In this document: in pieces, positions 1-59,600 of the stretch | How the letters are laid out: every line of letters starts with the position of its first letter | How positions within the stretch are numbered: position 1 is the first letter of the stretch | Assembly: GCA_030272585.1 (NCBI GenBank) | Contig: BSYQ01000009.1 | Span: 4,836,001 to 4,900,000, forward strand | Source: Bryopsis sp. KO-2023 | Lineage: Eukaryota; Chlorophyta; Ulvophyceae; Bryopsidales; Bryopsidaceae | Length of the DNA stretch: 64,000 nucleotides | Direction of reading: 5' to 3' | Position numbers and translations under genes: made by a program | The notes under the pieces: model-generated | Databases searched by the model: none | What the model saw: only the letters and a program-made list of their open reading frames with translations | What the model was told of the DNA's origin: nothing

Positions 1-2
1 CG

Positions 3-1121
<1,119 letters not shown>

Positions 1122-2765: not shown

Positions 2766-4006
2766 TCACTGAAGTCGGAATCTCCTCCCCCTTCTTCCAT
2801 TACCATCGCCTCTTCCTCCCCCTCCATTTCCGCCACCCTTCCCCCCGCGTCCACCCCTACCTCCCTCCTGCCGATCTCCCCTGTTTCCGCCTTGCTGCCC
2901 ATCTTTTTTCCCTCCGCCCTGCTGACCGTCTTTTCTCTCCTCCTTTTGTTCGGCATCTCGTTTTGGCTTCGGACCTTTCCTCACCACCTGCGTCAGTCTG
3001 GCATCGGAGCAATCCTTCAGCTCCCTGTGGCAAACTTTGATTTCGCGACCGCCCTTCTTGCAGTCTCGGAACTCTCGGTTGCAGTTGCGTCTCTTCATCT
3101 TGGCAGGAAAGCATGGTCCAAAAAACTTCCTTTTGGCTGAATCATAGCGACAATCCGCAACCTCTTCGCTGTCGACCCCTTCTTCCGTGCCCCCCTCAGT
3201 TTGTCCACCTTCTCCTACGACTTGCTCTTCGGTGGTGGTCGGTATGATTCCTTCGGGGTCCTCCGCCTCCAGGTTGATGCCGCAACTGACTGCGAGCAAA
3301 ATTTGCGTGATGGCGTCCTCCATAGCAGCACCGACATCCTGCGCAGTGGATAGACTTTTCTGCAGTCCAACGAGACCGCATGATTTGGGTCCCCCTAAGA
3401 AACCATCCGCTCCTTCTTGAAGCCGAGTGGCAATCGCAGAGGTTTCCTCGGCGAGCCAAGCCTCGGCCAATGTTTGCTGCACGGGGTCTGTGTTTTCCAG
3501 AAGACCTGCGACAGTCGTCCAACGTCAATCTTAATATCGGTACGCTCGTAAGTACTGCAGCGTTCGCAAGGAAATTGATGCCCGAGTGCACGGCGCAGGG
3601 CCAAAACCGACGGAGCAGATTCTTTCCAAGTGTTAGAACTAGGGTTGGGATAGGTACCTCCTGCCACTCCTTGAGTTACGAGATCGCTGACGACTTCCGC
3701 GACGGCGTCAGTCTCGGCGACACACTCGGCCCCGGCGGTTTCGCTGCTGGCGATAGCCACGGCGACCGAAACGGCCAACGACGAAGCTCCCACTTCGCCT
3801 TCATCTTTTTCCTCACCGCCCGCGTCGCACGCGACCACTCTGCTGAATGCTTGCGCGATGGCGTTCGAGATCGCCTCTCCGACCGAGTTCGAGGGGTCAG
3901 CGGTTGCGAGAGCGGTTGCGACGCAGTCCGAATCTTCGACCACCTCCCCGACACCGAGCGCGGACGGGGCAAACGCCAGAAGCAGAATTACCAGCACTGT
4001 TTTCAT
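2766..4006 (-). CDS. Secreted Ala-rich protein with basic Gly/Gln/Lys-rich tail (2 exons, 362 aa)
   Basis: Exon 1 is 4006-3658 and exon 2 is 3505-2766. The 152-base intron has a GAG|GTACCT donor and a GCAG| acceptor, and phases match (1/1). The start is the ATG followed by MKTVLVILLLAFAPSALG, a clear signal peptide. The mature N-terminal part is rich in Ala/Val/Ser with recurring A-x-A-x-A helical stretches such as AISNAIAQAF and a few widely spaced Cys. After about residue 240 there is a Cys-rich basic segment (CNREFRDCKKGG, CHRELKDCSD), then a Lys/Arg/Gln/Gly-rich low-complexity tail ending in GRRGRRFRLQ. I recognise no catalytic domain. It resembles in plan (signal peptide, Ala-rich helices, basic tail) the gene at 46921-49119 on the other strand. 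A role in extracellular matrix or mucilage is only inferred from secretion and composition. Confidence 0.75.
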
Positions 4007-5699
4007 CTTAGTCAAATATATTTTTCTGTTTTTTTCGGTGAGGAAAGGGAATCTTGTGTGCCTTTGACTGTCGCGACGCAACTATTTTCGGACTTTCGCA
4101 AGACTTCGGGGTGTGAACCAGTGAGAACATTACTCATTTATTACTCATTTCCCTGTGCGGGACGTGTGAGCCCGCCCCAATCGCGCGCGCTCCTTGATGC
4201 ATGGCAGCACAGATGAGTTTTTCGGAGGTTCCTTCTGAAGTGAGGTGAATCAAATCAAATCATGATGACACACGAAGAAGCCGCTCGGCTTAAAAAAAAA
4301 AAAAAGGGGGTTAGAAAAGTTATATATATATAAAGTGAGGTGAAAACACTTCGGAGAGTCCCTGGAACGAAATCTCTCCTCGACCAGCCCAGTGGCGGCG
4401 ATCGATCGGTTCGATGTTCCTACTCTCTCTCCTTCTCCTTCGATGAAGAAGGAGGACCTCTCCGGTACACATATTCAATGTGTGTGGCTTTCTCTTTGTG
4501 TGTTTTCAAAGTGAGGTGTTTCAACAGTCGCTGCGTCTCAACAAGCCAATCTTGACCTTGCAAAAAGGTGTTTCTCATACAGATGGTGGATAATTTATCC
4601 TTGCACCAAACTAACATCCAATCAACCCATAAACATAAAAATGGGTAGATAAAAATACATAAAATACAAAAAATTTCATAAAAACACCAACACAAGAGGA
4701 ATCTAGGTATCTCTGGAGGCAATAGATTTTCTTGGCAAAAGTTGACCATCTTTTAACTGGGTGGTCAGAAATCTTCAAAACTTGCACAAATAGGTTACAA
4801 ATCTCTCGTACATACAAAATCACCTCAAACCAAAACCCTCTCCCAATTCCAATCTCTGTTTTCCCACACAACATAGTGTCAGCCTTCATATCTGTTAGAC
4901 ACTCGTTCCCACCCCTTCTTTTTTCTTTTCTCTCAAGAAAAAATTCTTTTTTTTTTCAATTTCCCTTTATCTTTTTGGACTAAATACCATTCGTTGTCTC
5001 AAAAATTCAGTACGTGTACAAAAACGGTACAAAAAACCCTTTCTCTCTCTTTTTTCTTCCCTCATTTTCCCCCCTTCCAAATTAACCAACAGATGACTGG
5101 AAAAAGGTGGCCAGTCTCATTTTTCATTTTAAGGGGAAAAAAAAAGAAAAAAAGGAAAAAAAACAATGGATATGAAGTTGCAGAAGGGAAAACACACTCC
5201 CTCTGTCAGAAAAATAAAATCCTTTTCTTCTTTCCACTCTTTTTTTTTCTTTCATTTCCTTGGGAAAAAAAAACCTGAGAAAGAAAAGCATCATGCACCA
5301 ACAAAAAGCAGGTTCTTATTTCAGGTAAGTTCCTTCAGGTAAGTTCCTTCAGTTCCCCCCCCCTTTTTTTCCTTTTTTTTTCCCTCTCCCTCCCCGTTCT
5401 AATAACTGGAAAGTCGATTTCATCTCTCCACCTCAACAAAACAAAAACACCGTTCTAATAACTGGAAAGTCGATTTCATCTCTCCACCTCCACAAAACAA
5501 AAACATCAGATACATTTTACAAGACACCATTCGTTGTTTTTTTTCTTTGCCCCCCCCCCCCCAAAAAAAGCACACCTCCCCTTTGTCAGAAAATCAAACT
5601 GAAAGGACCGGTAGGCTGACACTCAAAATTCCTAAGGTGCAAAAAAAAGGCAAAACACACAAATATTTCATCAAAATCAAAATCTTTTTTCTCTCTCCC
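4007..5699. other. Spacer with short tandem duplications
   Basis: No supported coding exon. The first 200-300 bases presumably contain the promoter and 5'UTR of the Ala-rich gene on the minus strand. The rest is pyrimidine-rich and low in complexity, with a (TA)n run near 4321-4332 and a 56-base tandem duplication at 5395-5506. The remaining open frames are short and rich in Phe/Lys because of homopolymers. Confidence 0.5.
5395..5506 (+). repeat. 56-base tandem duplication (2 copies)
   Basis: Two copies begin at 5395 and 5451 with the shared start CGTTCTAATAACTGG and differ at only one or two positions. Just upstream, at about 5323-5351, AGGTAAGTTCCTTC is also repeated in tandem. This looks like recent replication slippage in a non-coding spacer. 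Confidence 0.85.
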
Positions 5700-6495: not shown

Positions 6496-7047
6496 GTCCT
6501 CCTCTCTCCTCTTCTCGGATTGGTACCGCAGAAAACTGTACCAACACGCAATCGGTTAACAACGAGTCTTCTGTGTGGAGGTTCGAAAGCAATGCCAGAA
6601 ACGACGCGTGTGCGCGATGATTGCGCACAAAAAAACGTCCCAGCGTCGGGACAAGGAGGCTAATGTTGATGCGGGAGATCTACGCTCTACGCTAGTCGCT
6701 TCAAAGGAATGTGTTCTGCAGATACCCTGACAGATACCCTGACAGATGACGTCTTAACACACAGATCGCGAACACGATTCCAATCTCCGAGCCAAAACCC
6801 TGACGAGTCTCGTCGACCTTCGAATCGAAGGAAACAAACAGCGTTCCGGAACGGAGGTGTCGACTACGACGTCTGTATCACGCGAATAAAAAAAAACTGC
6901 TTCCCCCGCGAGGAAAGAAACCGAGCAAGGACAAACACAAACACCAAACGATCTCGACGGTGTTGCAACACTCGGGCACCCAGAAACAGCAGCCCCCGCT
7001 CACCTGAAGTGATTGACGGTATACGTTTTGTTTTACTCCGCAACAAT

Positions 7048-10094: not shown

Positions 10095-13000
10095 CTAGTC
10101 CCTTGCATCGCACACCCCTTCTGTCCCGATTGCAAAAGTAGCATCCCTTTCTGGCAGACATGGGGAACTGATGATTTTGACGGTCCGATTTTCGCCTCGG
10201 GATTTCTTCAGCCAGAGTCTGGTGGTGGTTGCATGCGCCATGATATTCCCTCCAATAGGTTTCACGCTCGGACCAGCAAACATACTCGCTCCATCCAAAT
10301 TCGCAGCCACCACCTCGAAAAAAAAAGCACCAAAAGCTTCTCGTTAATTAATTATTTTTATCTTATAATAATTCTTAATTCTTTGTTGGTATAATTTTTT
10401 TCAAGAATTTCAATTTTTTTTACGAGTCAAGTTTGTGCAAATTTCTTTACGTGTGGCTTATTGATTTATTAAGAAAGTTTATTATTCCAAGGACAAATTT
10501 GTATTTCGATGCTTGGAATCGTATCGGCTGCAGAAATGATAGGGATTTTTTCAATTTTCAATTTATTTTTTACTCTTTCCAGTAATCTTCAGACACGATG
10601 TTTGTTTAAATATTTAATTTTTCCGAATCTTTTTTTTTTGGTGAACCCACTCCAGGTCAATAGTCGTTTTAAGAAAAAGTTAAAAAGGGTGGGGAAAGGG
10701 GAGAAGAAAATGGTTTTCCTTTTTTTTAGCTTCTGCTTCAGTTAGTTGAAAAAAAAAATGGGAAGGTATATAAAAACTCTATTTTTTAAATTAAATTAAA
10801 TTAAAGAAAAAAAAGAGGGTAAGAAAAAAAACCAACATGTTACTTCCGACTGCAAATCAATCCAGTCAGACTCATAAGAGCCTTTTTTTCTTCTCTTTTT
10901 TTTCTCGGATGGAAGGAAAAACAACATATCTGTGTGTATTCACCAGGTAAGATCTGATGGAAATTTAGATCTCCATTAGATCTTACCTGGAAATTTTGTT
11001 TGCTGGAAGGTGTTGAATACCTGATTAGTCACCACCACAGCAACACCGAATTCGTCGCAAATGCGTTGCAAGCTTCGCAAGAATCGACCCAGCTGTATTT
11101 GACGAACAGACAGTTCGCCTCGTCCATTGAATTCAGACCTATTTTCAGCAACAATTTTTTCAGCAAAAAAAAAATGAAAAGAAGAAAACAAACAAACACA
11201 AATGATAAACATGCGAATTTTTTTTCCCACAAGCAAGATTTGTGGTCGAGAAAAAAAGTGCCCAAGATGATTCCCTGTCCGAAAAAAACTTGAAAAATTT
11301 AAAAAATCTATCCACGTAAAATACAAATCAACCTGAACTTATTATGGTGGGGGTGTTTTTGGCTTTGCAAATCCATCACATGATTCCACCACTTCGCAGA
11401 ACAGGCAGAATTCCCTTTAACATGTGCATAAAAAAACCAGGTTTTTTTGTTTTTTTTCAAATACAGTAGACGCCGCTTTATTAACCCCATTCGGGCCACG
11501 CCTTTTCGGGCTAATAAAGCGATTGGTTAACAATCCGATGTCCGACATTTCCCCTCTCCCAGACGCGCACGCATTCGAATCAAACTCTAAAGAACTCGTT
11601 AATAGTGGTCTGGCGGTTGAAACGCCGTCGAAGGAACTCCATGATCCCGTCTTGGGTCGTTCTCGGTGACGGAAAGGTCTTGTCGAGCACGAGTCGCAGG
11701 TTATGACGTCCAGAAACAGATAGAGAAGTTCGACAGTTACATATTCATATTGCAGTGCGTTCATTTTTTCAGCCGTTTCATATTCTCTATGCATTCAGTT
11801 CATTTTGTTCGACTGTTTTCGAATTCCCTTTGCACTGCGCGTTCTTCGTTCGACCATTCGCGTATGAAATTCGCGAGTGGCGTGGTTAATTAGCCGACGG
11901 CCGGGCTGATTAAACGATGGTTCCCACCCCCTGAAAATTCCGTTCCTGGCGATTTGGGCTAAGAAAGCGGCGGGGTTAATTATCCGATGGTTATTAAAGC
12001 GACTTCTACTGTAATAATAAAAAAAAAGTCACCAAAAAAAAAAAAAAAAACAGCTCCAACTCGTTCTCCATCTCATCTCGATTTTCTAAGTCAGAAGTTT
12101 CCAGAGGTGTTTTCTGTTCGATTGCTTTTTTCGGGGGGACTTCCCAGGTATAATCAGCCTTTTTTTTTTGTTTTCTGGTGCACATCCCACTTTGTTTTTC
12201 ATATCGAGGCAATATCAGGTAAGCAAAAAAATAGAAAAAAATAGAAAAAATCATAATGAGGGGAATAATTGGGGGGGGGGGGGGCTGAAGAAGAAAACAG
12301 AGAAAAATTGATAACAAAAAGGATCCATTTTTTCCAAGACCACAAGTTGCTTGGGTTTTTGTTTTCGACCTGAAGAGGCCAGTGACGCTATCCACCACCA
12401 CCAAAGCAAATCTGGATTCCATCATCATGGCAGCCGATTGAATGAGCAACTGAGCCTGGTGCTCCGTGTTGTGTGCTCTGGCATATGCCACATTCTCCAA
12501 AACATCCTCCGAATTCAAATTGTACCTGCATGCACATGGGAAGCGATTAGTGGTGTGGAAAGTGTCAGGATGGAATGCCATGTACAGGAATCTGTTTACG
12601 CTTGAGAAGGGTCGATGAGCTGTGGAGGTACGTTCTCTGGGATCTGTCTTTTCGATTCTCAGTCGATGAGCTGTGAGGATGGGTTACCGGGATGATGGTG
12701 TAAGCTGTTCAACGGAGCTCGAACAGCTCCGTTGATTGAGGTTTTGGAAAAACACAGGGCTCAGGTCTGTACAGCCATATGGAACCTTCTCAAGTGTGAA
12801 CAGATTTCTACATGCATTCCCAATTGGCTGGCCCTGGCATTCAGTCTGACATGGTCATGGAGCGGACTCCAAGAATTCCCCATCTAGGTTTTTGCAGATG
12901 AACAACTGCATTGCAGGGACATACACTTAAAGATAAATTTGGCCCCTACACTCCCACAATGCTCATTGCTCGTTTCACAAAAGTACTAAAAAAAGAAAGT

Positions 13001-24000: not shown

Positions 24001-27000
24001 AGAAGAATGCAAAAAATTTTAAAAAACTTACAATTTTAATTTTTTTTTTGTTTGATGTGCGTAATTCGCATATGCAATACACTCAAGAAGAAATACAAAA
24101 AAATTTCAGTCATCATTTAACAAATGGTCCCTGCATTCCCCCCCCAAAAAAAAAAAAAATAAAATAAAAAATAATTGACTTCCAGACCCTTGCTCCGAAA
24201 CGCACATACATACATGTATTTTTTTTTTATTCGTCAAAAATTTAAATACTTTTTTTTTTTCAAATTTATATTTCTAAAAAAGAAATACGAGAGCAAAAAA
24301 ATAGTAAAGCCTTTAAACAAACAAAAACACAAACAAAGTATTTCTTTCTTTTTTTTCAAAATACCTTCCAACAATCCTTCCACCAGAAGCCCCCACCACC
24401 ATGGAGGGGACGAACAACCCAGTAGCAGCACCGACTCCATAAGTCCAGGTCATCAAAACATAGGAATAAACAAAGGTGATGCAAATCAAAGCCATGGTGA
24501 ATTCCCATTCAGGGTGGTTGTCTGGAACGCTCTCCCCCAAATGCATCAACAGTCTCAATGCACTGGTCAGGGGGGTGAAAAAGATTTGTCCGTAAATGCT
24601 GTAGTGATCGTCCTCGCACCAAAGCTGAGGGAAATATTCCAATTCACCACCCCCTTGGTAAAAATGAGCCTGAAAAAAAAAAAAGACAGGGAAAAATTAA
24701 ATTAAATAAGTGAACATGAATAACATGAGTAATGCTATCCTGTAATATTATCTTACAACAATCTTAAACACAGGGATCTTGTTTTGTTTTTTGTAATGTG
24801 CATTGTCTTGGGCCCATATTACTAATTACTACTAAGTCGAGGGGAAAAAAAAATCAAAAAAGCTGTTTTTGTTTTTTTTACTACTTTAGCTTTTTAGCCT
24901 CGATCTAATACATTCGGAAGGGAAAAATACGCCCCCCACCTCCAAAAAAAAAAACAGCAGGAAACCCAGCACCTACATTTCCTGAGGTGTTGAGGTCGTC
25001 TTGATGGGGGTTGAAGTAACTTTTGTCTTTGGGCGTTTTCCCACATGGCGAAATATAGCTCAACCAAAACCCGATCGAGGCCGTCACGAACGCAACCACC
25101 ATCACTTCCACCGTTCGCTTCCATGCAGATTTCACGGGGATGTTTTTGTGCCTCCAACTGGTGATTTTCACGTTCATCCAAACGAAACCGGCCCCCAGCA
25201 GCCCGAAAACAGCACCCATCAGCATGAAAATTGGGATTTCCCAGAAGTAGTAAAACAGGTTGTCTCCATATTTCGCGTAGTTATCCGAGTACAGTCCGAA
25301 ATCTCGATAGCGGCCGAATTTTGCAACGTGAAGGGCATAATCTGGAGATTTGATGGCTTCGACCTGTATGGACGCAAACATGCATTGGAATGAATTCCTG
25401 AGCATATGCACGAGCATGGAGAAATAAAAGAAAACTGAAAAATCACTTCATTAAAGGGGAGAAAAAAAAAAAAAAACATATTGTTTCTTTCTTTCTTTTT
25501 ATCTTCACCTAAAACTGTATCGACTGACACATCTTCACATGACTTGATTTGAATTTGAAATTCAAATTGAAGTTTTTTTTTCTTTTTTTTTTTTAGATGC
25601 TCGGACTTCCTCTTCCTCGAGTTAAGAAAATCCAAAATTTTCGAATTGTAAATTCGACGATTTTTTTTTTCGCTCACCAAAAAATGAAGGGTCAAAACAC
25701 CCATGGATGTGGATAGGAAACCCTTCCACATCACTCCGGTGCTGTAGAAAGAACAGCCCTCTTCGATGGTGAAAAGCAAACCTCCGATAGGAGCTGCAAA
25801 GGCCGTGGCCACACCGGCAGCTGTGCCAATAGCACTAAAATCTCGATGATCCTTTTCCACACAAAAAAACATGTGTTTTTTTGGGGTTGTTTTTTCGAAT
25901 CTTGATGATCTTTTTCCACACAAAAAAACATCTGTTTTGTTTTATTTTTCAAATCTTGATGATCCTTTTCCACACAAAAAAAACATATGTTTTTTGGGGT
26001 TTTTTTTCAATCTTGATGATCCTTTCCGCAGAAACACCACATTTTATTCTATTTTATTTCAAAAAGTTAAATAGATTGGTGCAAATGCAAGCGACTTATC
26101 CATCAAACAGATGCGTTTCAAGCAAAAAATTTTGCTTCGATTAGTGAAAAAATAATAATAACCGCAGCAAAATAGTCCCTCGAGGGATATGCCAAAATAG
26201 TTGGAGTTGATGGTTGAAAAAAAAACAGTTTAAGAGAGAAAGAAGAAAACACACACACACTCCCGTACGTCGTTGTTGTTATTTGCCGTTTATTCATTGC
26301 CCTCTCTTCACAACAACCACTCACCGCATCGTTCCGGAAATATCCTCCCAATCTCCTCCCCGATTTGAATTTGACCTTGTCCCCAAAAATCATGGTGAGA
26401 GTTCTGGAGCCCATTCCACCAAGACCTCCACCGACGATGCCCCCTCCGTGAACGAAGGGACCTTCCTTCCCGGCGATCAGCCCCGAAGAAATGGAAAACA
26501 TGATTCCAATGATTTTTGAAATGAAAGTTTTGACTTGGAGGAGGCCACGGATGTGAACGCCATTCAAGTAGGTCTTCAGCTCGGGAATTCCAGATCCGGC
26601 CGCCAACGGCTGTATAATCAATTATTATTATTAATGGGAATTTTTGGGTGTCTTTATTCAAAGAGGAAGAATATGAAGATGAAACACAATGAAAAAAGAA
26701 ATGAAAGATAGATTTGGGAAATATTATATGCACACATGCATGTATGTGCCCTTTTTCCCCCACACAAATACTCAATGTTTTTCGTTTTCCTGACCTTTTA
26801 TTTTATTTTATTTAGTTTTTTTTCTTTTGTTTTTTTTGGGGGGGGGGGAAGAGGAATGTAACCATACATTCTGAAGTCATAGTGTTTTTTTCTAACGACA
26901 GTAATGGCAGAGACCTGGATGGGAAAAGTAAAATTTCTTTAGCATAGAAAAAAAAAGGGCAAGAAAAAAAATTATATCTTAGAAAAAAAAAAAAAAAGAT

Positions 27001-31097: not shown

Positions 31098-34000
31098 ATG
31101 AACACGTCCCTGACGATTCTCAGGGGTTTGGTTGCGCTTCGCCCTGCATTTCGCGGCTCGCATCATCGCGCTCTTGGTCGCGTTTCATTCTCATCGGTGA
31201 ATTCACGTTTGGCTGGTTCTGGAACGGTATCCCTTCGACGTACGAAAAGCGTTTTCGTCGTGAAAGCGATGTCTGGCGACGCCGCCGCGCCGCCGAAATT
31301 CACGAACGCGCTCGCCAAAGAAGAGTCGCCGTATTTGTTGCAACACGCACACAATCCGGTGAGGGGCGATTTCACGATTTCGATCGACATCATCGAATTG
31401 TCAGTCATTTGAATAACACAGTTCAATTATTTCGTTATTTTTATTAAAATATATGTACTCGAGATATATATGTGTATACTCCCATGGTGAGGCCTCCAAA
31501 ACAAGAGTGTAACAGAATGTGAAAAAGAATCAAAGAAAATTAATTAACCGATCCAGAAATTTTTGAAAATTTGAAAATTGTTGAATTTGATGCAATATAT
31601 CTTCTTTTTTTTTGTATTCTTTTTTTCTAATTTGTTTTAGAGCGTCCTGTCTGACTGAAATTTTGTCAATGCTTTTGCTACTTGTCGGAAATGATCAGAA
31701 ATGGAATGTTAAAAAGCTATAAATCTATTTAACTATGGAATGTTAAATCTTGTCCATAGTTTTATTTTCTGTTATTTTATTTTCTGTCAGACACTGATGG
31801 GAATCATCATGACTAATCTCAGGTCGATTGGCTGCCATGGGGTCCGGAAGCATTCCAAAAGGCAAAAGACGAGGATAAGCCAATTTTTTTGTCGGTCGGT
31901 TACTCAACATGCCATTGGTGAGTATTTTTGCCTCAAAACCTTGATTTTGTTTGTTATAATTCTGGAATTCACCTTAGTCATGGTGTAATGGACAGTTCCC
32001 ACTGGTATTTCGACAAATGCATCCTGAAACTCGTCTGACTCAGTTTTTGAACAGACAGTTTTTTTAAAATTATTATTGCACTTTCTATCCCTGTGTTTCA
32101 ATTCTGTTTTTGGTTGCTGTGGGTTTCTTCTTCTTTTCTTTTTTTTTTCGGCGAACCCTGAAAATCTCTCGATACAAAAAAGTCGTTTCAGCAGCACGTT
32201 CGTTCTGCGAAAAATCCAGGAAATGAGCAAAAATGAGGTCAAGACAATCTTTGGGACAAGTGTGTAAACAGTTTAAATTCCTGTGTGAATGTAACATCGT
32301 TTCGCTGGAAATGCGCTAGGTGCCATGTTATGGAGCATGAGAGTTTTGAGGATGAATCCACAGCTGAACTGCTCAATGAGAATTTCATCAGCGTGAAAGT
32401 GGATCGGGAAGAACGCCCTGATGTCGACAAAGTATATGTAAGGTTACAGCACATTTCTTTTCTTTCGTTTTCGATGCAAAATAATACTGGGCCCAGTATC
32501 TTTGTTGTTATGGCTGGTCATCCGAGCGGACCTCCCCAGTGTTTACCCTTCTGGTTGTTTTGAAATGAGCTGCATGACTGTCTGGGAAAATCAGATGACG
32601 TACATTCAAGCGATTTCTGGCCGTGGTGGCTGGCCGATGACGGTGTTCCTGACACCGGATTTGAAGCCGATTTATGGGGGCACTTACTTTCCTGGAAAAG
32701 AGAGCTACGGAATGCCCAGTTTCAAGAAGGTTTTGAACAGTGTGGGGGAGGCTTGGTCCAAACAAAGAGACCTGGTTTTGGAGCAGGTGATTTTCTTGAT
32801 TTCAGTATGCAAACAAGGAAACCAGAATTGAAGTTGCGAAACAGTTTCAGTATGGCAAACTGTGGGGCTCTCTTGCATGAGCTCAGGGTAGAATTCAAAA
32901 TTGAGTGCACTTTGTATCCCCCATGCACTTGCATCCGTGCAAGAATATATGTTCATTTTGTGTTTTTCCTCAAAGCAAGCAGAAGATTTGGTAACAGACG
33001 GTGCTTTGTTGTGTTCGATGGGCTTCGCAGCAAGGAAAATGGTGTGTTGTTTGTGCATCTATTTTCCCAGGGTGAGGAAATCATGGCTGAGTTAGCCCAG
33101 GCCGTCGTCCCCGATAAAGCGGAGAAAGATGAGGATGCAGGATTGGCTAGATCTGCGATGGATGGCTGTACTGAAGCCCTGGGGGGAAAATTCGATTCCG
33201 CGCTCGGGGGGTTTGGTGGAGCACCCAAATTTCCCAGACCTTGCGAAATCAATGTCTTGCTTCGACAGTATCTCCGGAAAAAAGTGAGACTGAATCGTGC
33301 CGACATCATTGAATGATGTTTTGCAGTTGCATTGATGAAATCCAATGCTCAGTAGAGATGACGTTGCATGCATGCATGCATGCATGCACATGCATGTATT
33401 TTTAGGTTGAGAACCCGGAAGAAGCCAAGGGAATTCTGCACATGGTAGAATATACACTGGAGAGAATGGCGAATGGGGGAATGTACGATCATTTGGGGGG
33501 TGGATTTCATCGATACAGCGTGGATGAGCATTGGCATGTTCCTCATTTTGAGAAAATGCTGTACGACAACCCTCAAATCGCATTGACCTACTTGAACGCT
33601 TTCCAAATCACTGGAGAGAAGCAATGGGCTGCAGTCGTTCGTGGAATCCTCGACTATCTGAGGAGAGATATGACTCATCCAGAAGGGGGCATATATTCAG
33701 CAGAGGTACTTTGGCGGAAAGAAATTATATTTCTTTTTTCTTTGTTTTGGTGGTTTGGAAAACGCACGTGGGGGGGAAGGAAGGGATTGAGAGTTTTTTT
33801 TTGCCGACTGTTTTTTGTTTTGTTTTTTTTCCATCTAGATTTAATTTTTAGCGAGGTTCCTATTTTTTTTTTCCATTTTCACAAGGCTGTTCGACCTGAC
33901 AGGAATTCAGGAGTGCATCCAGACGGCAAAATTATGTGTTTCAAAATTAACTCCATACACTTTTTCCGGTAATGATATGCTTTTTTTTCTTTCTTTTTTT

Positions 34001-41866: not shown

Positions 41867-44800
41867 ATGCAAAGACGTCCGGCGAGTGCCAGAGGAGCAG
41901 TCGTCAGGGGGATCCTCGCATATCTCTTCGCCGCGCTCACGGTTCAGGTACTACAAGCTGTGGCTGCGGGATAAAAATGTTGACTTTCTTGATTCATCCT
42001 AACTGCCACTTCGTTTGGGACGATACCTCCCTCATACTGTAACGACTATCCCCGTACCCCAAAACATCTATCAGACGACTATTTTACTCCCCAGATCTAT
42101 TCATTGAAACCCGACTCAAGAGGTTCTGCTGTGAATAGGTGATCAGTCAGCCAGGCGAGAGGTGTGCGATCGAGGATCTGAGTGTCGAGGTTGAGAGCAC
42201 TTCCATCTCTCCACTCGACAACAGGGTCGCAATCAACGTGGGGGTGGAGTATGCGAGCGTGGTCCCCTCTGAGGCTAGAAATTTCGTGGTCCTGGAGCAT
42301 TCCTGTCGTTCAGCCGGAAACGTGGGAACGACGTCCAAACTGATCCCCTCCTCCGCTGGACGGCTTCGTTTCAAGTGTGTTGTCCAGGTTGACGTGCTCT
42401 GTTCATCCAACAACGTCGTTGTCACAACCACGGCGAAGGTCCCAGACAACGAATTCTCCCTGGGCTGTGAACAATTCGCACAAGCCACCACCACCGTGTG
42501 TGGGGTTGACGGAAGTGGTGGTTTGCCCAGTTCAACCCCACGCGAGCCTTGCCCCATCGACACCCTACACATAGCCACACCGACTGTGGGTAGGGACGCA
42601 AAGTCGCTTTACGACCTGACGGTGGGGGTGGGAGTTCAGTTAGTGACGACTACTGCGCTCGATGAATTTCTCCATCGAATCAAGCTGAAGAACTATTGCC
42701 TGTTCAATGATGAGCCCGGGAAAATCACCCCTGCAACACTGGTCGGTCATGGTATTCAGTTCGAATGCACCGTCTGGACTGAGTTTCCCTTTGACTGCAG
42801 TGGAAATCTTTTGGATTTCGGGGTTGAGGCTTACGTCACTGGCACAGCTGGAATTCCTGTGGATGGGTGTGCTGTCAAAAAAACAATGAAGTTAGCAATA
42901 TGTTTGGACAGAAGCACAGGGAAAGGCGTCGCAAGGGAGCCAGGGGGAGTCATGCTTCAACAACCACAACTTGGCCGATCATTCCCACCTCCATTGGAAT
43001 GTCAGACAGAGTTACCATCAATAGATCTGCTGCAGGTCCAGGGTGACCCTGGGAATCAATTCAAAGCTACTCTTGATGTGGCATCAGAATTTTCTGGGAC
43101 CAGACATGGACTTGTCGAGGCTCTGCATTTCTGTTCGATCAATGGAAAACCTGGGCTGGTTGAGAATCATCCTGGGCACAGTGGGGAGAGTTTGTTTTCC
43201 TGCACTGTGGAAACAACCTGGCCGTTCCACTGTGGTTCAAACTTCATAGAGTTTTGGACACAAGTGATAGACAGGAGGCAGATCCCGCCCTGCGTTAAGA
43301 ACGCAGGGAAACGGTTTTCGTATTGCCTGGACTCAAGGACACGAGCAACTCACGTGCTGGGCTTACAAGCGATTCAGTTTCCTACAGTCAGGGACACATC
43401 ATTCTTTGGAATACTTCTTGATGGTAATCGACTGGGTGCTACTGCCCAATCGAACCAAGGGGCTGCAGTTGCAACTTGTCCAAGCACGACACTGCATGTG
43501 GAAGTTGGTGAGGGGAGGCTTAACTCGACACAGGATGTGCAAAGTTTCGTATTGGGCCTGGTAGTGTACGCGCCTGAGGCATCCGCCTTAACTACCACGT
43601 GCACACTGAATGGGATCCCAGGAGTGACTTCACAGCCAGCGCTAGCCCAGGGTGGATTCTCCTTCACGTGTACAGTAAGCCCCCGGTTTCCATCGGCATG
43701 CCAAGGAAATATGGTCGACGTCTTCGTTGAAACAACGCCACGCAGCGGTGTGGTTGCTACATGTAAACAGCGAGGTAGTGTGAGAGTGTCACTTTGCCTC
43801 AACCCCCTGCTCAGCGGAGTCAGAATCGTGGAGATATTGGATGTACCCGAGTCGTTGTTTGGTCGATCAAGATTTCCCCATCTTTCAGACGCCAATCCTT
43901 GGGAGCTGCACACAGAAACAGGGAAGGGTCACTATGAAAGTGGGCGCTTTGGATATCGACGGAGAGAAAATGCACAATGGAAAGACTTTGGAGCGGATTG
44001 GGACTGGGGTTCGACAAGAGGTCAAGCGAGGAATGCGTTCCAGAAGGGGGTGTATCGACGGAAACCGCTTGATTCCAAATGGCATGGGTTTTCGGATCCC
44101 AAGTCCAAACACTTCCACGACAACAGTCGTGATGAATCACTCTGGGGATATCGGCAAGATGGGGCCTTCAGCACGATACCTGACTGTGCATTCGAGGAAG
44201 GGGGGTTGGACATCACTATACAACAGGTTCAGCGGGACCCTGCTGATAAGAACATGGTAATACTGGACATTGTGTTGCTGCGTCAAGAGATTGACGTCAA
44301 GACCCCAACGCCAAGGTTTGAGTGTTCGCTCAACGGACACAGAGGGACCTTGACCGATCCAACTCGGACAGGAGTGGGGTTTTCCTATGTATGCACAGTT
44401 CTCTCGTTGAATCCCTTTCAATGCGGCAGCAACGAAATCGTGGTTACAGGCGAATCAATCGAAAAAGGAGAGCTTCCTGCCAAGTGTTCACCTCACAAGC
44501 GCAAGGTTTATACGTTCTGCCTGGATTCCAAAACTGAAGAGGCCAAAATATCGGAAACATCCGAAGAACACTCGTCAGGACACCCAAACAAGCTGAAATC
44601 AAAACGCTGGGGCGTTCGAGATTCCAGGGGCTGGAGTTCAGATCAAGGGTGTGCCGTCAGAGGTGAGGTAGCGGTCGACCTTCTGGGCAGTGTGTGGGAT
44701 GGACGCTCCAACAGAGCTACCCTTCGATTGCTCATCAGGTGATTTCTGCACCACTGCACAGAGGTTTGTTGTGTGCATAGATTCCCTATTCACCGTCAGA

Positions 44801-46217
44801 GCTTGAACCACATTGGTTCAAGCCTCTTTTGGAGATACAAGCGCTGATTCCATTTCAAATTGGCACCACCTGTGAATCAATTCGATTCTGGGAGAAAAGA
44901 GCAAAACAGACCAAACAGTTTCTCAAACTGAAATATTGTTTTCCCGCCATTCTTGGTGCTAGGTATGACCAAGGCGCCGAACCAAATAGAATTATTCAAG
45001 ATGAGCTGACCGACATACGCTGTGCATGCTCCTTGCATGGCGAGTTTGGAGTCGTGTCCCCACTGTACGCTGAAGCGGAGGGGCTTGGCGTCACATGCAC
45101 CTTGACGTTGGATTGGTCGACGGAATGTGGGGCCAACTGGGTAGATATTCATGTCGAAATACATGAAAAAACGTTGTCAAGTCGATACGAGAGCTACACT
45201 CAATTCGTGGGACCTAGAACTCAAAGGGCATTCTTTGCGGGCCGCAATGCGGCTTGTGATAGGCGGGCAGGGCGGCTTGTCTCGCTGTGTGTGAATTCGG
45301 AAACTCAACGAGCACTGATTCTGACATCCAAACTCGTTCAGTTTGACGAAAACTCGAAAAGAAACACGTGTCTGGTGAGTGAGCTGGATACGGAAATAAC
45401 AAAGGTCGAGGAAAAACGTCAAACAGAGTTTCTTCCATTGCTGACGGTATCAATTTCCGTTAAGTATGCATTTCGTCAGACGAAGCACAGAGAGTGGCAT
45501 GATATTCATATAGACGGGCTGGACCCTATTCGAGATGTCAAGTGTGCATGCCAGAGCAAAGGCGTTCGAGGAGCCACGGGAGGAATCACAGCAATGCCCA
45601 ACGGTTTCAAGTTTACTTGCACAGTGCCTCTCCGCGACAATTTCAACTGCCTCACTTCGGAAATCAAAAGCATGATCTATCTCAGTGAGGATTTTGCTCG
45701 GGTGGCGGGCGGTCACGAGTGTTCCAAGACGTACTCTCTGATGTCGACAACGTATTGCATGCAGCCCACCTGTCGATTCTATGCGGTTGACATGGGGTAT
45801 TCGGGCCAATTCGGGCTGGTCACTGACGCTCCGACTGCAAGGATACTTCTCCTGTGCTCACATCCAGTGGAGGTCTGCAAGGATTGCTTCGTTGTGACGG
45901 GGCCACAATTCGCAAGCGTGAATCACTTGCAACTGGGAAACGATGGACTCACAACGTACTATTTGTATTTCTCATGGGAAGATACTTATCGGGGTCCCGT
46001 GAGTGTTTCGGTCGAGTCGGTGAGGTCGAGACAGGGCTGCTCTCTGGAGCTCCCAGGGGCTGCTTCAGTGTCAGCCACCCATCCTGAGTGCACCAGGGAG
46101 AAAATCACCAGAGTGGGACCCGTGAAAGACTTGCGATTTAATGTAGTCAATAGGGGGCAAGTGCTTGTGAAAACGATGGGTTACGAGACAAAGAATGGTT
46201 GTGGAGATCGATGTTGA
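41867..46217 (+). CDS. Secreted repeat protein with about seven six-cysteine domains (3 exons, 1311 aa)
   Basis: Exons: 41867-41947, 42139-44738 and 44963-46217; junctions are GT-AG with phases 0 and 2. Exon 1 plus the start of exon 2 encode a signal sequence (GAVVRGILAYLFAALTVQVI) followed by a Cys-containing mature start. The rest is built of about seven repeats of 110-190 residues. Each has a starting Cys, a beta-rich stretch, a second Cys before an N-G-x-x-G turn, an F-x-C-T-V motif, an F-x-C-x-x-N motif, and two closing Cys, the last usually in C-L-D-S/R. Examples are FECTVWTEFPFDC, FSCTVETTWPFHC, FTCTVSPRFPSAC, YVCTVLSLNPFQC and FTCTVPLRDNFNC. Repeats 4 and 5 are separated by a Trp/Arg/Asp-rich insertion (about 43850-44190). 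The domain pattern suggests disulfide-stabilised beta sandwiches in an extracellular protein. I cannot match it to a named family. There is no C-terminal membrane anchor. Confidence 0.75.
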
Positions 46218-46920: not shown

Positions 46921-49119
46921 ATGTTGGCTAGACCACCCCACTGTATGGGGTGGGCCGTGCTCTTTTTGTGCTGCTGGACTATCGCAGCGAGGTCCAGTTT
47001 TTCCAATCAAGGTATTGCGCCAAATTCTGGGTGTCGATCCATCGATCGAATCTGGAATTTGCAGTGTAGGACCTAGCCCCCCTTGCCCGCCGCTACGGTG
47101 AAAGAACGATTGATATTCTTGTGTTTTATGGCTTTTTTTTGGCTTTTTTGGGGGGTTGGGGGGGACAGGAGTTTTCGGAACGTCCGCTCGTGAAATCCTC
47201 CAAACATCAAGTTCGAAATTGACGCTGACTTCGACCAGCGGAGTGGTGAAGGGTTCATCGAAATCGACTTCACAGGTTAGGATCGACTCGAGGGAATTTA
47301 GTTTTTTGTTTTAATTTTGTTTTAATACAATTTATATGTAATGTTACACATCGAATTACCCTATCACGCCCATTTCTTCGAAAAAAAAAAAGTTCAAAGG
47401 TCTAAACAGCTATATCTTTGAACACTGAGAATGTGACAGTGTGTTAAAGTTGAAAGCAAAACGCTGTAGAGTGATTGTGTCTGCAGTACAATCTGTTGTT
47501 GTTAATGTTTTCTGGAAACTGACAGTTTTCACCGAGATAAAACCCATTTCATGTGGATGCTATCAAATCATGTTCATGAAATGTAACACTTGGGTTGTGG
47601 AAAGATCCACAGTTTTTGTAAATTGTCTGCAAGTCACGTGCGGACCGATCATATTATCTGTTTTGGAATTCGTTTTTGGTTGTTTCACTTTTTTGGAGTG
47701 GCTGTGCACTTTTCTTGGGTTTTATGCAGACGATTGTCGAAGTCAACGATGCTGTAGTGGAGGCAATTTCTCAGTCTGCCTCCACGGTGTCTGACGGGGG
47801 GGATGGACTGGCACAAGCTGAAGTGGCAGCCACAGCTATCGGAAAGGCTGTGGCAAAAGCCCTTGCAGAAGCGGGTGTGGATTTAGAAGTCATCGGTCAA
47901 GGCTCCGCTAAAGGCATAGCATCAGCCCAGGCTGCAGCTATAGCTAAAGCCACAGCCAGAGCAGTCGCCAAGGCGATTGCTGAAGTGACGCAGGGAAACA
48001 AGAAAGCAGAAGCAGAGGTAAGGGGAAGGGATGGTGTGAGTGATGTTGGGGGGGGGGGTTGGGGGGTTATGTGTTTCTGCCTTTTATTCACTTTTTTGTT
48101 TTTTCTATGGATAAGGTGGAGGGGGCCTCCCTGAGTACAGCAATCGCTGAAGCTACTGCGGAAGCTTCTGCTGAAGCCGAAACGACAGGAGGAAGAGCTG
48201 TATCTGAGCAAAGAACCGTGGCGACCGCTGTTGCCAGGCCTGTTGCCAAAGTCTTGATTTTCGCTTTTGCTTATGTTGGCGATGGTATGCTTGGCTGGAT
48301 ATCCTCATGCCTATTTCTGAGAAGAATGATGGAAAAGAAGCACAGCTATAAATATGTGTCAGATAAATTGCATGATCCAGTTTTTCTTTATGATTGCTGG
48401 ACATCCTCATGCTCGTTTCTGAGAAGAATTATGGGAAAGAAACGCAGATATAAATATCTGTCAGACAGATAGCATGATCCTTATCCTTATCATTTTGGTG
48501 TTTTGTTTTCGGTCCAGGGGAGGTGGTGTCGGAAGCTTCTGGAGAAATCTCCTCTGAGGTCAAGGATGAATCGACTGCATCAGTGGACAGCAGGAGCGAA
48601 GCCACTGGGGAGGGGAGAGCCGAAGGCAGCGCAACAGGAGATGCTACAGCAAAACAAGTGGTTCCAGGGCAGCCGTCAGAAGCCAAACCCACTGAAACAA
48701 AACCAGAGACTGACCAATCAGAGCCTGAAAAGTCTCCACCCACCGAGTCAGACCCTGAAAAGTCTCCACCCACTGAGTCAGACCCTGGCACAGCAAGCAC
48801 CGGCACTGAAAAGGTGGAAACCGTGCCGGAAGCGACTGGGGAGTCAGAGGAGAGTTCTTCTGGATCGACCTCGAATGGAGGTGGTGGTGGAGGAGGTCAG
48901 GGCTCTGTCGAGCTCGTTACGGAGATTGGGAGCGGTGGTGATGAGTTGAGTGGGGAGGTGGGGATAGTCACGCTTCCAGGGGGGTCAGTAAGAGCCAGGA
49001 CAAAGGGAAAGAGAAAGAACAAAAACAAGAAAAAGAAACCTAAGAAAGACAAGAAAGACAAGAAATCTAGAAGAGAAAGGAGACGCAATCGGAGGAACAG
49101 AGACAATGATGATGACTAA
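46921..49119 (+). CDS. Secreted Ala-rich protein with acidic/Gly linker and very basic tail (5 exons, 418 aa)
   Basis: Exons: 46921-47011, 47169-47275, 47730-48017, 48116-48284 and 48518-49119; phases 1, 0, 0, 1 agree at each junction. The ATG follows CAACC and opens a signal peptide (MLARPPHCMGWAVLFLCCWT then IAARSS). After a Ser/Thr-rich exon the protein becomes strongly Ala-rich with a helical pattern (AAIAKATARAVAKAIAEV; STAIAEATAEASAEAE). The last exon is low complexity: Glu/Ser/Thr/Pro-rich with two perfect EKSPPTESDP decapeptides, a poly-Gly stretch, then a Lys/Arg tail (KGKRKNKNKKKKPKKDKKDK) ending in Asp. No catalytic domain. It shares its plan with the 2766-4006 gene. An extracellular-matrix or silk/mucilage-like structural role is inferred. 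The donor of exon 4 (GATG|GTATGC) is the least certain boundary. Confidence 0.7.
48292..48480 (+). repeat. Diverged tandem duplication (period about 102) in an intron, both copies open
   Basis: Two copies share TCCTCATGC, TTTCTGAGAAGAAT, ATAAATAT.TGTCAGA and GCATGATCC blocks. Both are in the intron between exons 4 and 5 of the Ala-rich gene. The frame of exon 4 stays open through both copies and encodes similar peptides (SSCLFLRRMMEKKHSYKY and SSCSFLRRIMGKKRRYKY) before a stop at 48472. Confidence 0.75.
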
Positions 49120-50434: not shown

Positions 50435-53044
50435 ATGCGTCGCTGGAGGCAGATCTTGTGGTTGGTGGCGATCGCCGTCAATTGCAATGGTAAGCATTCG
50501 TTTCGTTCGGACGAGTGAACTTTCTGGTTCGAGGGAACGATAAATCGATTGACGCTTGGATAGAGGGTCATCCAGTGCGATGGTGCTTGTTCAGGCGTGA
50601 GAGTTAGGAAGGAAATCCAGTTGTGGAAGCGATCAGCTGGGCATGGGCGTCACTTGAACCTTGTGAATTTCGACATCGATGGCGGCATGGGGTTGCACGG
50701 ATTTCCTGTATGGCTGACTGAGAGACTACGAAGTGTGTGTGTGTGTGCACATGGTTTTTCCCAACAAAAGCTTTCCTAAATCAAACCTGTTTGGGACATC
50801 TGTTTGTGTTTAAAAACAAAAACAAAAACAAAGGCTGCTGGCCACCTCAACACCAGTCACATTTTCATGCAAAGATCAATCAAGCAATCAACCAGTTGTA
50901 CAACCAGCCCCCAAATACAGAGCATGGATCTAACCTAATTGTCTGCAGGTGTGCTTGGTGAGTCCCCCACTAATCCTACTGGACCCCCCCCCAACGACCC
51001 CTCAGTGAATCTTCACCAAGTCGGAAATTTGGGCGAAACGAACTCCTACTCAGCTGAGATGGTTTTCGGGGAGCCGATGGAAGTGATGAGGGAAGCGTCT
51101 GATGGCAGCTTGATTTCCACACATGTCAGTGTTATTCAATCGGGCAATGAGCAAGGGCTGATAATCATTCCGGAGGAAGGAACGAAATCTGTGGAGTGCG
51201 ATGATCGGGCCCCCGAAGGAGCCACTTGCAGTGAACTGGTGAGGATGATTCAATTTCACGATAAAGATGTGGCAATTCTTTTCTTTTTTTTCTTTTTTTA
51301 TTGTTTTATTTTTATTTTTTCTGTTTTTCCAGGATATGTTTTTACTTCTGACGTATGTTTCTTTTTCTTCATCAATGCAGGAAGGTTTCGGTGGCTGTAC
51401 GATGCCAGTTATTCTTTCTAATGGTATTTGCCGCAAAACATGTGGAGAATGCAGTCCGCCACCGAAGTTGATAGATCCTTCTTCGAAAACCCCAGCTGTG
51501 GAGTTCAACGAGGAAAAAACCAGTGAGGAAATTTCGGGCGGTGATGTCAATCCCGACGTCAGCCATCATCCAGACGGGGGAAATGCCGGATCAAACCCCA
51601 CAAAAACAGGAGCCAGGGAGAAATCAGCCAAACCTGGAGCGCTGGGAAAAGGTGTGGAAAATGGGGAGGAGCAAGCCAACGAGAAGTCAGCACCAGCAGA
51701 GGGGGCCAATCATGAGGAGGGGGGTGCGCAAATCGATCCAATAAAACAGGACCAAGATTCAAAAGAAGCTAATGGTGTGGGTGACAACCTGAAAGTGATC
51801 GAGGTGACGCCTGTGGAGGAAAAGCCAGAAGAAGCAAAGTCCAGTAAAACAGAAGGGAAAGGAAAAAACCAGAGTGATATCGGTTCGAAGAACAAAGGGG
51901 GAAATGAGGGGCCAGCCTCCGACAGCTCCAGTGACACAGCAGAGGATAAATCCGAGAAAAATAGTGAGGTGCCAGCAAATGAGCAAGCCCTTATGTCTGA
52001 CACTGGCACCGGTGGGGAAACAGGGCTGGCGGATGAGTCTGACCCATCAGAGGAGTGTCGCAGCATAATGCAGATTTTGGATGACAGAGAGGACCTGAGT
52101 TTTATGTCCCAATTGTTCAAGGTGAGTGAGGTTTTTTGCTCCCCCCCCCTGATGGAAAAAATAGGCTTATCATGGATATAATATTTCAATATATGTATTT
52201 CATTTTATGAATTTCTTCAGAGAAGATAATAATAATAAATAATGAAAATAGAAGAAGAGGTACAGATAAGATGTACCAGCAGGACATAGACCTGAGTGTT
52301 GATTTGATTTTTTAGGCTACGCAGAACCCCCTTTTAAAGACTGTGGGGGATAGGTCCTTCATCGGTACCCTCTTTGCACCGACAAACGATGCTTTCGACA
52401 AAGCGTTGGGCGAGTTTGGCAGCACACGGGAAGCCTTTCTAACCAAAAACCCTGGATTGGTTGAAGTGGTAAGTTCGGCCCCCTTTTTATTCCCATCATA
52501 TGCTTTCCAATGAATGCATATTTCATCCATAATTGTCAGAATTTGGAGGATTCACTCACTGTAGTTTTTTTTTTCCGTCCATCTTTCTTTCGATGCATTA
52601 CAGATATCCTTCACAGTGAGTGGTGGAAGCCCCCAACGTTGAGTTGTAATTGAATTTCTTTTGTTGGAAGGCTGCAATACAATTAAAAACTACAGTGGAA
52701 AATCTTAATCATTTTTTTTTTATTGTTGCTACCCTCCATTTTGGTTGATTTCTTTACTGCAGGTGCTGGACGCCCATGTCGTACCTGGACTTCCCAGAAC
52801 TCAGCTTTCCGATGGCCAAGAATTCCCCACCGTGACGGCCCGTTTCGACATTTTCGTGAAATCGGATGGCAAAGGGGGTGTTCAGATTGTTTCCCAGGGG
52901 GACAGGGCTGCAAAAATATTAGGAGCCAATATCGAAGCTTGTGAATCGGTGGTCCATGTGATAGATAATGTTCTTTTCCCTCAACCTGAGGAGGTTGTCA
53001 AACAAATGGTTGAGGCAAAATCCAGTCGGCCAGCGGCAGGGTGA
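50435..53044 (+). CDS. Secreted fasciclin (FAS1) domain protein with Cys motif and charged linker (5 exons, 506 aa)
   Basis: Exons: 50435-50489, 50949-51238, 51381-52121, 52316-52468 and 52763-53044; phases 1, 0, 0, 0. Exon 1 is a compact signal peptide (MRRWRQILWLVAIAVNCNG). An N-terminal polar region follows, then a Cys cluster split by intron 2 (CSEL|EGFGGC... GICRKTCGEC). About 200 residues of Glu/Lys/Ser/Gly-rich low complexity separate this from a single C-terminal FAS1 domain. The FAS1 hallmark motifs are present: H1-like TLFAPTNDAFDKAL and H2-like VVHVIDNVLFP, with VVLDAHVVPG between. FAS1 domains mediate cell adhesion and occur in algal and plant cell-wall glycoproteins. There is no obvious GPI signal after the domain, since it ends in a polar tail (KSSRPAAG). 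It belongs to the secreted-gene run on this strand. Confidence 0.88.
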
Positions 53045-56638: not shown

Positions 56639-59600
56639 CTAACAGATATGATACTGACCATACAACACAGCCCTAATTCTATAATACTCTTCGGAGACGG
56701 GCCCTTCCATGACAATATGCCCAGCGGATTGCACCCTGATTTGAACATCTTCATTACAAACCAAACTCCGTCCATGGAATTGAGCAACGATGCCGGCTTC
56801 CTCCAGGGCAGTCTTTACCCCCGAAAGTCGAACATCACCGATAAAAACCCCGCCCAAAGTTTCGGTGGCCGGCGTGTTGGGGGAGTCTCCATGCACCGCC
56901 AGCAACTGTGGAGGTTCCCCCTGAATGCACAACAAAAAAAACATCGATTTGAACCCCGTTATGGAATGAACCTCATATTATCGATTGTGGTAACATACGT
57001 AGTACCGCAGACAGGCTAATCTTTGCGTTGAACCAGTTTTTGCGGCCTGACTGACTCGCAAAAATTAGTCGAAGCAAAAGAAAACACACGCAATAGTTAA
57101 TGCGCAAAGAAAATACCCTATATACAGTAATACGTATATTAATACATATATCTTGATGTGGTATCCAGGGCAGTTCATGATTTTTTTCTTAAACGCTGCC
57201 CCTCTGAACTCTACCTCCTGGATTTCCCCCACTCTGCCTTCCACCCAAGCCAGTTGATATCCCTTGACATCCCTGAGGGTGATCCTTTGCATGATATCAT
57301 CCCCCAGGCCCAACCGGAAGGAATTCGTCCCAGACGAAACATCCACCGTTTCTCCGATCTCCGGGCAATACACCCTCTTCTGCATCCCACCCTACATGCA
57401 CAAAAACATCTAAAAACGAAAGAATTATGAATCCCAGCAACGCAACTCATCCTTACAAAACACAGAGGGGTTCGATTTGATTCTTCCAGCAGAGGCCTAA
57501 CGATTGCAGCAACGAGACGGTCCATTTCTCTGCACCGACCGCATATATCACCAGTTCTACCAGTTATTGGCCTACCAATTCTCGCTCGGCCATTTTCTTG
57601 AACGCCTGGGTGGTCTCAGCAGATCCATGCAGGATGATGAGGTGTCGGGGGGCCATTTCAGAAATCATGTGTTTCATGAACCTGCCGTTGGTTCGGCCGG
57701 AGAAATCAAACTTCCTGACTTGGGCCTTCAGCATGACTGACATATCGACCATCACAGTCTTGGTGGGCATCTCCTCTTCATGCACTTCTGGAGCCACCGG
57801 AATCAGCTCGGATTCCTCTGCGACCAAATTTTCCATATCAGTTCTCAGGACAAAATCGAATCCTACCCAGCAGCAGCTTCCTCAAAGCTTCCTTTTCTCT
57901 CTCTCTTAGTCATGGTTACGGCAGCTACTAGTCAGTCAGAGGCACACGTCTGTTTTATGTTTCATCTTTTCCCTCAAGCACAGTTTGAATAGCTGGTTTA
58001 CTATCCAAAACCCCTCCTGGAATTAGAACAAGAGGCGATACCATGCTGCATATCGTCTGGTTGAGTCAGACATTGTATCGTTGGTTGAGTCAGACATGCA
58101 TCGTTGGTTGAGTCAGACATTGCATCGTTGCTTTTCAACCTACCATCCTCGGCCTCGGTCACGAAGAAATCTTTAGGATCGAAGAATTCACCATAGTCAT
58201 CCCATTCGACGTAATCGTCCTCCGAAGGAAACATCGGAGCAACCACCCCCTGAAACCCAAACCATCAATCCATCAATCCATCAGTCACATAGACATGCAT
58301 GCATCCAGCCGTACCGATGATGGGACCGTTCAGGGTTTTGGGTTAAATGAAACGGAATCAATGGACTGGAGAGGAGTTCATTCTGAACATTTCACGATCA
58401 GAACATCCGAATGTGACAGGTCATTTTATTACAATTTGAAAATGTATCGAAATAATTGAAATTTGGATTTGAAATTTGAGATGCAAAACTACCTCGGGGA
58501 CATCGAATCCATCGATGAGGACGTCGGCTCTGGCCCAATTTCCAGGTTGTGCAACTTCTTTTCCAAGCATCTGCACGACAGCCCCTGAGCGCTGTCTGAC
58601 CAATCGGCTGATGCTCGAGCAGCTGGTCCTCAAGGGCTGGTCAAAACTTGGGGAAGTATCCAATTCGATTTCCTCACCGTAAACTTCTTCCCTGGTGGCC
58701 TCCCCCTCGACTGCATCTGCTGAACAAGCCCCCACAGCGATCAAAAAAACTCAGTTGGAAGGAAAGGGAAAAATTCGTCGGTGTATACAATCAGCCATAT
58801 GAGGCGAACGATTTTTTCAGCTTTACACAGCGACTGATTCCACTCCACTGTCCAGAACTCGAACGAACAGCTACTGAAAAAAAATGACAATGTCAGCTTC
58901 CTCCCGGCTTTCCCTAAGCTTCACCCCGGCTTCTCCCCCCCCAAAAAAATAAAAATAAAAAAAATCACTGTTGCCGATGGTCTCACACCTCGATTCGTTT
59001 TTTCAGGGTCGTCAACCCTCCTGCATTTTCTGTTGTGTTTTTTCTCAAACTCCTCCAGCTCTTCCCCTTCCAAATCCACCCTTCTTGCCAGTTTGATTCT
59101 CAACTGCAATCCATCGTCACTGGTTTTCCGTTTTCGATGCTGTTCAATCTCATGAGCCAGCGTTCCCTCCTGCACAACGCACATACGAGCGATAAAACAA
59201 CAGAATAACGAAAAAGCCCATCTTTATTCAATGGTTTCAGATATAATTTCTGGCTAATAACCCCACCAAAAATAGCAAATTGAGATTGAAATAAACACGA
59301 AACTTTATCCGACGACATGAAAGCGTCAAGAATCGTAGAACAGCCGGATAAGTACCCCCAAATTTTAAAATGAAATTGTGAATTACCTGCACATGGTCCA
59401 TAAGGATGATCAAGTTTTTTGCATCCCCTGCCCATTGGACCAGCAGTTCGCTCGACATTCCACATTCCATGGAGTTCATTGATGCCAAAACGACCTTGGG
59501 TTGACTGGGCAAATTCGCCACCTCCTCACAGCTGTGACAGACTTGCAAATATCTGGTGCCAGGCAAAAGAAAACACTAAAAGATTCAACATTTATTTTTT

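Follow-up and report, generated by a model that had tools for sequence, protein, structure and literature searches.

What kind of protein is encoded at positions 41867 to 46217 of the 64,000-nucleotide stretch of Bryopsis sp. KO-2023 analysed here (assembly GCA_030272585.1, contig BSYQ01000009.1, positions 4,836,001 to 4,900,000; hereafter the window), and what might a green alga use it for? The gene encodes a long protein with seven six-cysteine repeats. Both the repeat family and its predicted fold, an immunoglobulin (Ig)-like β-sandwich, are supported; its function we infer. The two introns, the C-terminal domain, the paralogs and the Ig-like fold described below are additions to a preliminary description of this locus.

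Gene, repeats and predicted fold

From the translation of the window and lists of splice sites, we predict a single plus-strand gene whose three exons encode 1307 amino acids (AA) without an internal stop (Table 1). Intron 1 has a second possible acceptor at 42138, and the frame is kept with either acceptor. Joining across intron 2 yields one open frame and restores a complete repeat 6, which supports the gene model, and a frame artefact is ruled out by an open frame of 867 codons together with the in-frame splice that completes this repeat. The protein start contains the 19-residue hydropathy maximum of the whole sequence (1.50, against 1.36 for the next elsewhere) and, judged by eye and hydropathy and not by a predictor, resembles a signal peptide, in line with the preliminary description. 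No membrane anchor or glycosylphosphatidylinositol (GPI)-like end is evident in the 1307-AA sequence.

Seven repeats had been proposed for one long protein, and both their presence and their coordinates hold, although at 112-144 AA they span a narrower range than the 110-190 residues given before. Six cysteines and one glycine are invariant in all seven aligned repeats. While the regular six-cysteine pattern thus stood, two shorter motifs claimed with it did not: the first reads C-x3-G/D-x2-G, not C-x-N-G (repeats 3, 4, and 5 do contain C-x-x-N-G), and C-L-D is present only in repeats 2, 3, and 5. In leave-one-out scoring, a profile of six repeats recognized the seventh at 31.2-58.2 bits, whereas the best of 500 shuffles per repeat with cysteines kept in place reached 11.0-20.4 bits, and for each of the seven repeats 0/500 attained the real score, which rules out a chance repeat. 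Over the 64-kb window the profile found only these seven, with all else at E 2 or worse. Pairwise identity among them averages 21.5% (17.0-27.5%), and the expansion is probably old, as was thought earlier. The linker between repeats 4 and 5, previously singled out as rich in Trp, Arg, and Asp, is indeed so relative to the whole protein (Trp 4.9 vs 1.2%, Arg 10.6 vs 6.4%, Asp 8.9 vs 5.0%).

Repeat 4, the one of the seven that was modelled, is predicted by AlphaFold2 to form a seven-strand β-sandwich (predicted local distance difference test, pLDDT, 85.2; predicted template modelling score, pTM, 0.76); a β-sandwich had been guessed from the sequence alone. The model is nearest to Ig constant domains (Foldseek E to 1.7e-4, VIA Z to 8.2), and the prediction supports an Ig-like two-sheet β-sandwich of about seven strands for the repeat. 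Ig constant-type (C1-like) sandwiches, such as those of T-cell receptor beta, HLA-DM, and IgNAR C2, would have the seven-strand sandwich in common with it, but among the PDB fold alignments listed sequence identity is 5-18%, the six cysteines of the repeat lie at other places, and no Ig model of Pfam is matched above its cut-off. In repeat 4, cysteine is absent from strands 29-36 and 84-93, which by their order would be strands B and F of the canonical disulphide. A viral fold library gave one match at E≤0.001, to a herpesvirus FcRn-like protein, and many weaker ones to herpesvirus glycoproteins, a likeness of fold only.

Searches of Pfam, NCBIfam, and PDB sequences supported the earlier statement that the repeats match no known family. 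No Pfam model reached its cut-off with the exons, single repeats, or paralog frames given, and the Pfam search by single repeats, set beforehand as the refuting test, produced no strong match. NCBIfam gave no match at E≤1, and the best PDB sequence reached only E 0.1. Among weak candidates we rejected PH_SPT16 of Pfam, which touched one of the seven repeats (E 0.2), and the PDB sequences of Kv4.3 (E 0.1), MobB (E 0.5), ribosomal eL33 (E 0.68), LAMP1 (E 0.8), CLK1, and dynein light chain (both E about 2). The exon-2 protein had no relatives in phages or in IMG/VR, the latter search being sensitive to close relatives only, and a search of bacterial and archaeal genomes with the same sensitivity gave eight pattern matches, of which none was confirmed. 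No title or abstract on the repeat family was found in the literature on algal walls, Bryopsis, and this organism, which is not proof of absence. This repeat is a candidate for curation as a new Pfam domain.

Paralogs and family history

The genome (91,088,769 bases in 28 contigs) was searched in six frames, exon by exon, a reading by which intron-rich members may have been missed. With exon 3 as the query, three further loci (C7, C3, and C8) were found at E≤1.4e-18, and the C-terminal domain of C8 returned the same four loci with no fifth at E≤10. Exon 2 reached C7 at E 0.64 only, and searching with repeat 3 or repeat 4 brought nothing new below E 0.1. The profile detected the repeats of C7 and C3 at 7-32 bits each, and more clearly after iteration, which raises scores by construction; with the iterated profile, C7 has six repeats, C3 eight, and C8 one partial repeat. 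When C3 repeats 1-3 and C7 repeats 2-3 served as queries, these two loci found one another (E 2e-18 and 2e-25), and no extra gene came up apart from one weak match at C3:5102084 (E 0.21). A weak match on C4 (E 0.13) was discarded, the fetched region giving at best E 0.28 to the profile.

A phase-0 boundary closes the signal-peptide exon of the window gene and of its C7 and C3 paralogs (in C3, the exon structure from there to the repeats is tentative). The linkers of the C3 paralog are Pro-rich (PPPPPPSSPP, PPPLPPPPQSPPPQSPPPPSPP), as in hydroxyproline-rich glycoproteins (HRGPs). For C8, a GT..AG phase-0 splice read by eye (donor at L021:5734, exon from 5836) would attach to the C-terminal domain a tail of 935 AA (L021 5836-8640, plus strand) made of DDSHHHGFGADHYGQ-like units and containing 17.1% His, 15.9% Asp, 13.8% Gly, and 7.0% Tyr; alternatively, the C8 protein may end without this tail at the stop at 5809. 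Observed and expected numbers of N-glycosylation sequons (1 vs 6.9 in the window protein, 1 vs 6.2 in C3, 8 vs 4.9 in C7, and 1 vs 0.8 in C8) differ in direction among the four genes and thus give no family rule. Upstream of the C3 repeats, a Cys-rich stretch at L020 ~6580-6890 on the minus strand (SCNDRSRRNMDSWGTCFRRRPQC...) possibly forms an additional N-terminal domain.

Trees were built from 21 repeats, leaving out the partial C8 repeat. In them the final repeats of the window, C7, and C3 genes clustered (FastTree 0.86, UFBoot 67), with values of 0.93 and 94 for the C3-C7 pair. Window repeats 2, 3, 4, and 6 also formed a cluster (0.82; 69), the other C3 and C7 repeats were mixed, and most nodes were weak. 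On the simplest reading, the ancestor would already have had a signal peptide, several repeats, a last repeat, and the C-terminal domain, and the genes would then have changed in repeat number independently.

Proposed role and alternatives

We put at about even the chance that the protein is a soluble, secreted extracellular scaffold, a rod of seven disulphide-rich Ig-like modules with linkers of varying kind between them and the C-terminal domain of the family at its end. This role is the likeliest on account of the signal-like start, the lack of an evident anchor, the many cysteines, the distinct linkers, and the relatives with HRGP-like or His-rich parts. Each module would have three disulphides, putatively C1-C5 and C4-C6 at opposite ends and C2-C3 spanning the sandwich, making the rod a stiff, protease-resistant spacer that is presumably extracellular rather than vacuolar. 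The common C-terminal domain may be the assembly or anchoring part, and the linkers and tails (Trp/Arg/His-rich in the window protein, Pro-rich and HRGP-like in C3, His/Asp/Gly/Tyr-rich in C8) might supply binding or cross-linking chemistry toward wall polysaccharides and other proteins. A wider and distinctly more tentative proposal is a structural family of siphonous green algae, in which an Ig-like module with this disulphide plan of its own, a shared C-terminal assembly domain, and differing linkers or tails (Pro-rich, Trp/Arg-rich, or His-rich) added to it would constitute a modular extracellular matrix of giant coenocytes whose evolution was separate from that of pherophorins and extensins. 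Descriptions of wall and wound proteins from giant coenocytic algae seem scarce, and a four-locus family with a common C-terminal domain offers concrete, testable candidates. Excerpts from a review of the green algal matrix list, for ulvophytes, polysaccharides, arabinogalactan proteins, and enzymes and extensins found in genomes (PMC10762512).

Second after the extracellular scaffold, though improbable, ranks a component of wound plugs or protoplast aggregation that would be stored in the vacuole or wall, released on cutting, and cross-linked through Cys, Tyr, and His. Excerpts from work on Bryopsis describe protoplasm that aggregates and regenerates after cutting, with lectins key in the aggregation, and membrane-free protoplasts whose membranes and wall form afterwards de novo (PMC3252328), so a scaffold or a wound role would each fit. 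The composition of the C8 tail would, if the splice is correct, suit metal binding or cross-linking, but this tail sits on a paralog and, with 934 of its 935 residues as the query, has no other genome match at E≤0.001; moreover, neither a lectin nor any other Pfam domain appeared above cut-off.

Less probable still is a recognition or adhesion protein, such as a gamete agglutinin or a binder of bacteria, with the Ig-like modules as binding surfaces. Ig-like rods of many modules are often adhesive, and at 17-28% identity the repeats would present differing surfaces, but the lack of an evident anchor or GPI-like end speaks against this role.

Two further known systems come close to the scaffold that we favor. 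Pherophorins have a Pro-rich rod between globular domains, and pherophorins and HRGPs of volvocine algae likewise combine a signal-like start with globular modules rich in Cys; linkers of the Pro-rich SP/PPSPP type occur in the C3 paralog. Unlike pherophorins, the window protein has no hydroxyproline/Pro-rich rod and no match to PF12499, and its Cys pattern differs from that of pherophorins. The s48/45 and SRS proteins of apicomplexans carry six-cysteine β-sandwiches in tandem and would be alike in this arrangement of modules within a secreted protein, but the window repeats have no Pfam match. That the repeats are a known family diverged beyond the reach of hidden Markov models (pherophorin, s48/45-type six-cysteine, or bacterial Ig-like repeats) is about as doubtful as an adhesive role: the Pro-rich rod of C3 recalls pherophorins and repeat 1, alone of the seven, touches Bc2l-C_N (PF21592; E 0.0025, 18.5 bits against a curated cut-off of 27), which we take as chance, but no repeat or paralog frame reached a Pfam cut-off, and PF12499 had no match either by the proteins in Pfam or in the genome, where controls could give no signal.

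Genomic surroundings

Table 1. Features of the window, with positions counted from its first nucleotide.
Feature	Position	Strand	Basis or remark
Exon 1	41867..41947	+	signal-peptide-like start, 27 codons, MQRRPASARGAVVRGILAYLFAALTVQ; phase-0 donor GT at 41948
Intron 1	41948..42150	+	GT..AG
Exon 2	42151..44738	+	repeats 1-5, linkers, first part of repeat 6
Intron 2	44739..44962	+	GT..AG, phase 2, inside repeat 6
Exon 3	44963..46217	+	remainder of repeat 6, repeat 7, C-terminal domain, stop
Repeat 1	42163..42519	+	alignment and profile
Repeat 2	42550..42918	+	alignment and profile
Repeat 3	43000..43341	+	alignment and profile
Repeat 4	43477..43812	+	alignment and profile; the repeat modelled
Linker after repeat 4, 123 AA	43816..44184	+	composition; Trp/Arg/Asp/Gly/His-rich, Cys-free
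Repeat 5	44185..44535	+	alignment and profile
Repeat 6, first part	44650..44738	+	alignment and profile
Repeat 6, second part	44963..45305	+	alignment and profile
Repeat 7	45369..45770	+	alignment and profile; groups with last repeats of C7 and C3 (moderate support)
C-terminal domain, 148 AA	45771..46214	+	Cys-rich, C..G-L/I-V-T..C..C-K/E-D-C..; common to four loci of the genome
Polyubiquitin	1-1121	+	by eye
Rad51-type gene	12009-12683	-	Pfam
CLC channel gene	24908-25447	-	Pfam
Thioredox_DsbH gene	32442-32828	+	Pfam
CPSF100_C gene	56642-56977	-	Pfam

The polyubiquitin, Rad51-type, CLC, Thioredox_DsbH, and CPSF100_C genes are ordinary nuclear genes. Upstream of the repeat gene, open reading frames on the minus strand belong to what we take to be a chloroplast-type FtsH gene. 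Downstream, at 46921-49119 (plus strand), lies a probable secreted silk-like protein with a signal-like start and Ala/Val/Glu-rich stretches, whose match to Pfam RP1-2 tubuliform silk (E 6.6e-4) is under the cut-off. Its 95-AA core recurs at 28 further genomic sites (E≤0.001); eight of these, spread over six contigs, share an identical score (92% identity), so it appears to be a recently dispersed multicopy family. Farther downstream, 50435-53044 (plus strand) encodes a probable secreted protein, its exons read by eye, that combines a Cys-rich motif and a Glu/Lys-rich region with a fasciclin domain at the C terminus (Pfam E 7e-9). That three adjoining genes look extracellular is suggestive only. 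A small protein without a Pfam match, with a signal-peptide-like start and Ala/Val/Ser-rich stretches, is encoded at 3398-4081 on the minus strand.

Light-harvesting genes gave 107 matches in the genome, counted exon by exon, and one 165-AA exon was identical at 160 of 165 residues to 6igz chain 7, scoring 374 bits where the next-best sequence reached 278. An excerpted source gives this chain as Lhca-h of Bryopsis corticulans (PMC9931709). The identity of this one exon indicates that the window derives from Bryopsis or a close relative, in keeping with the algal host first suggested.
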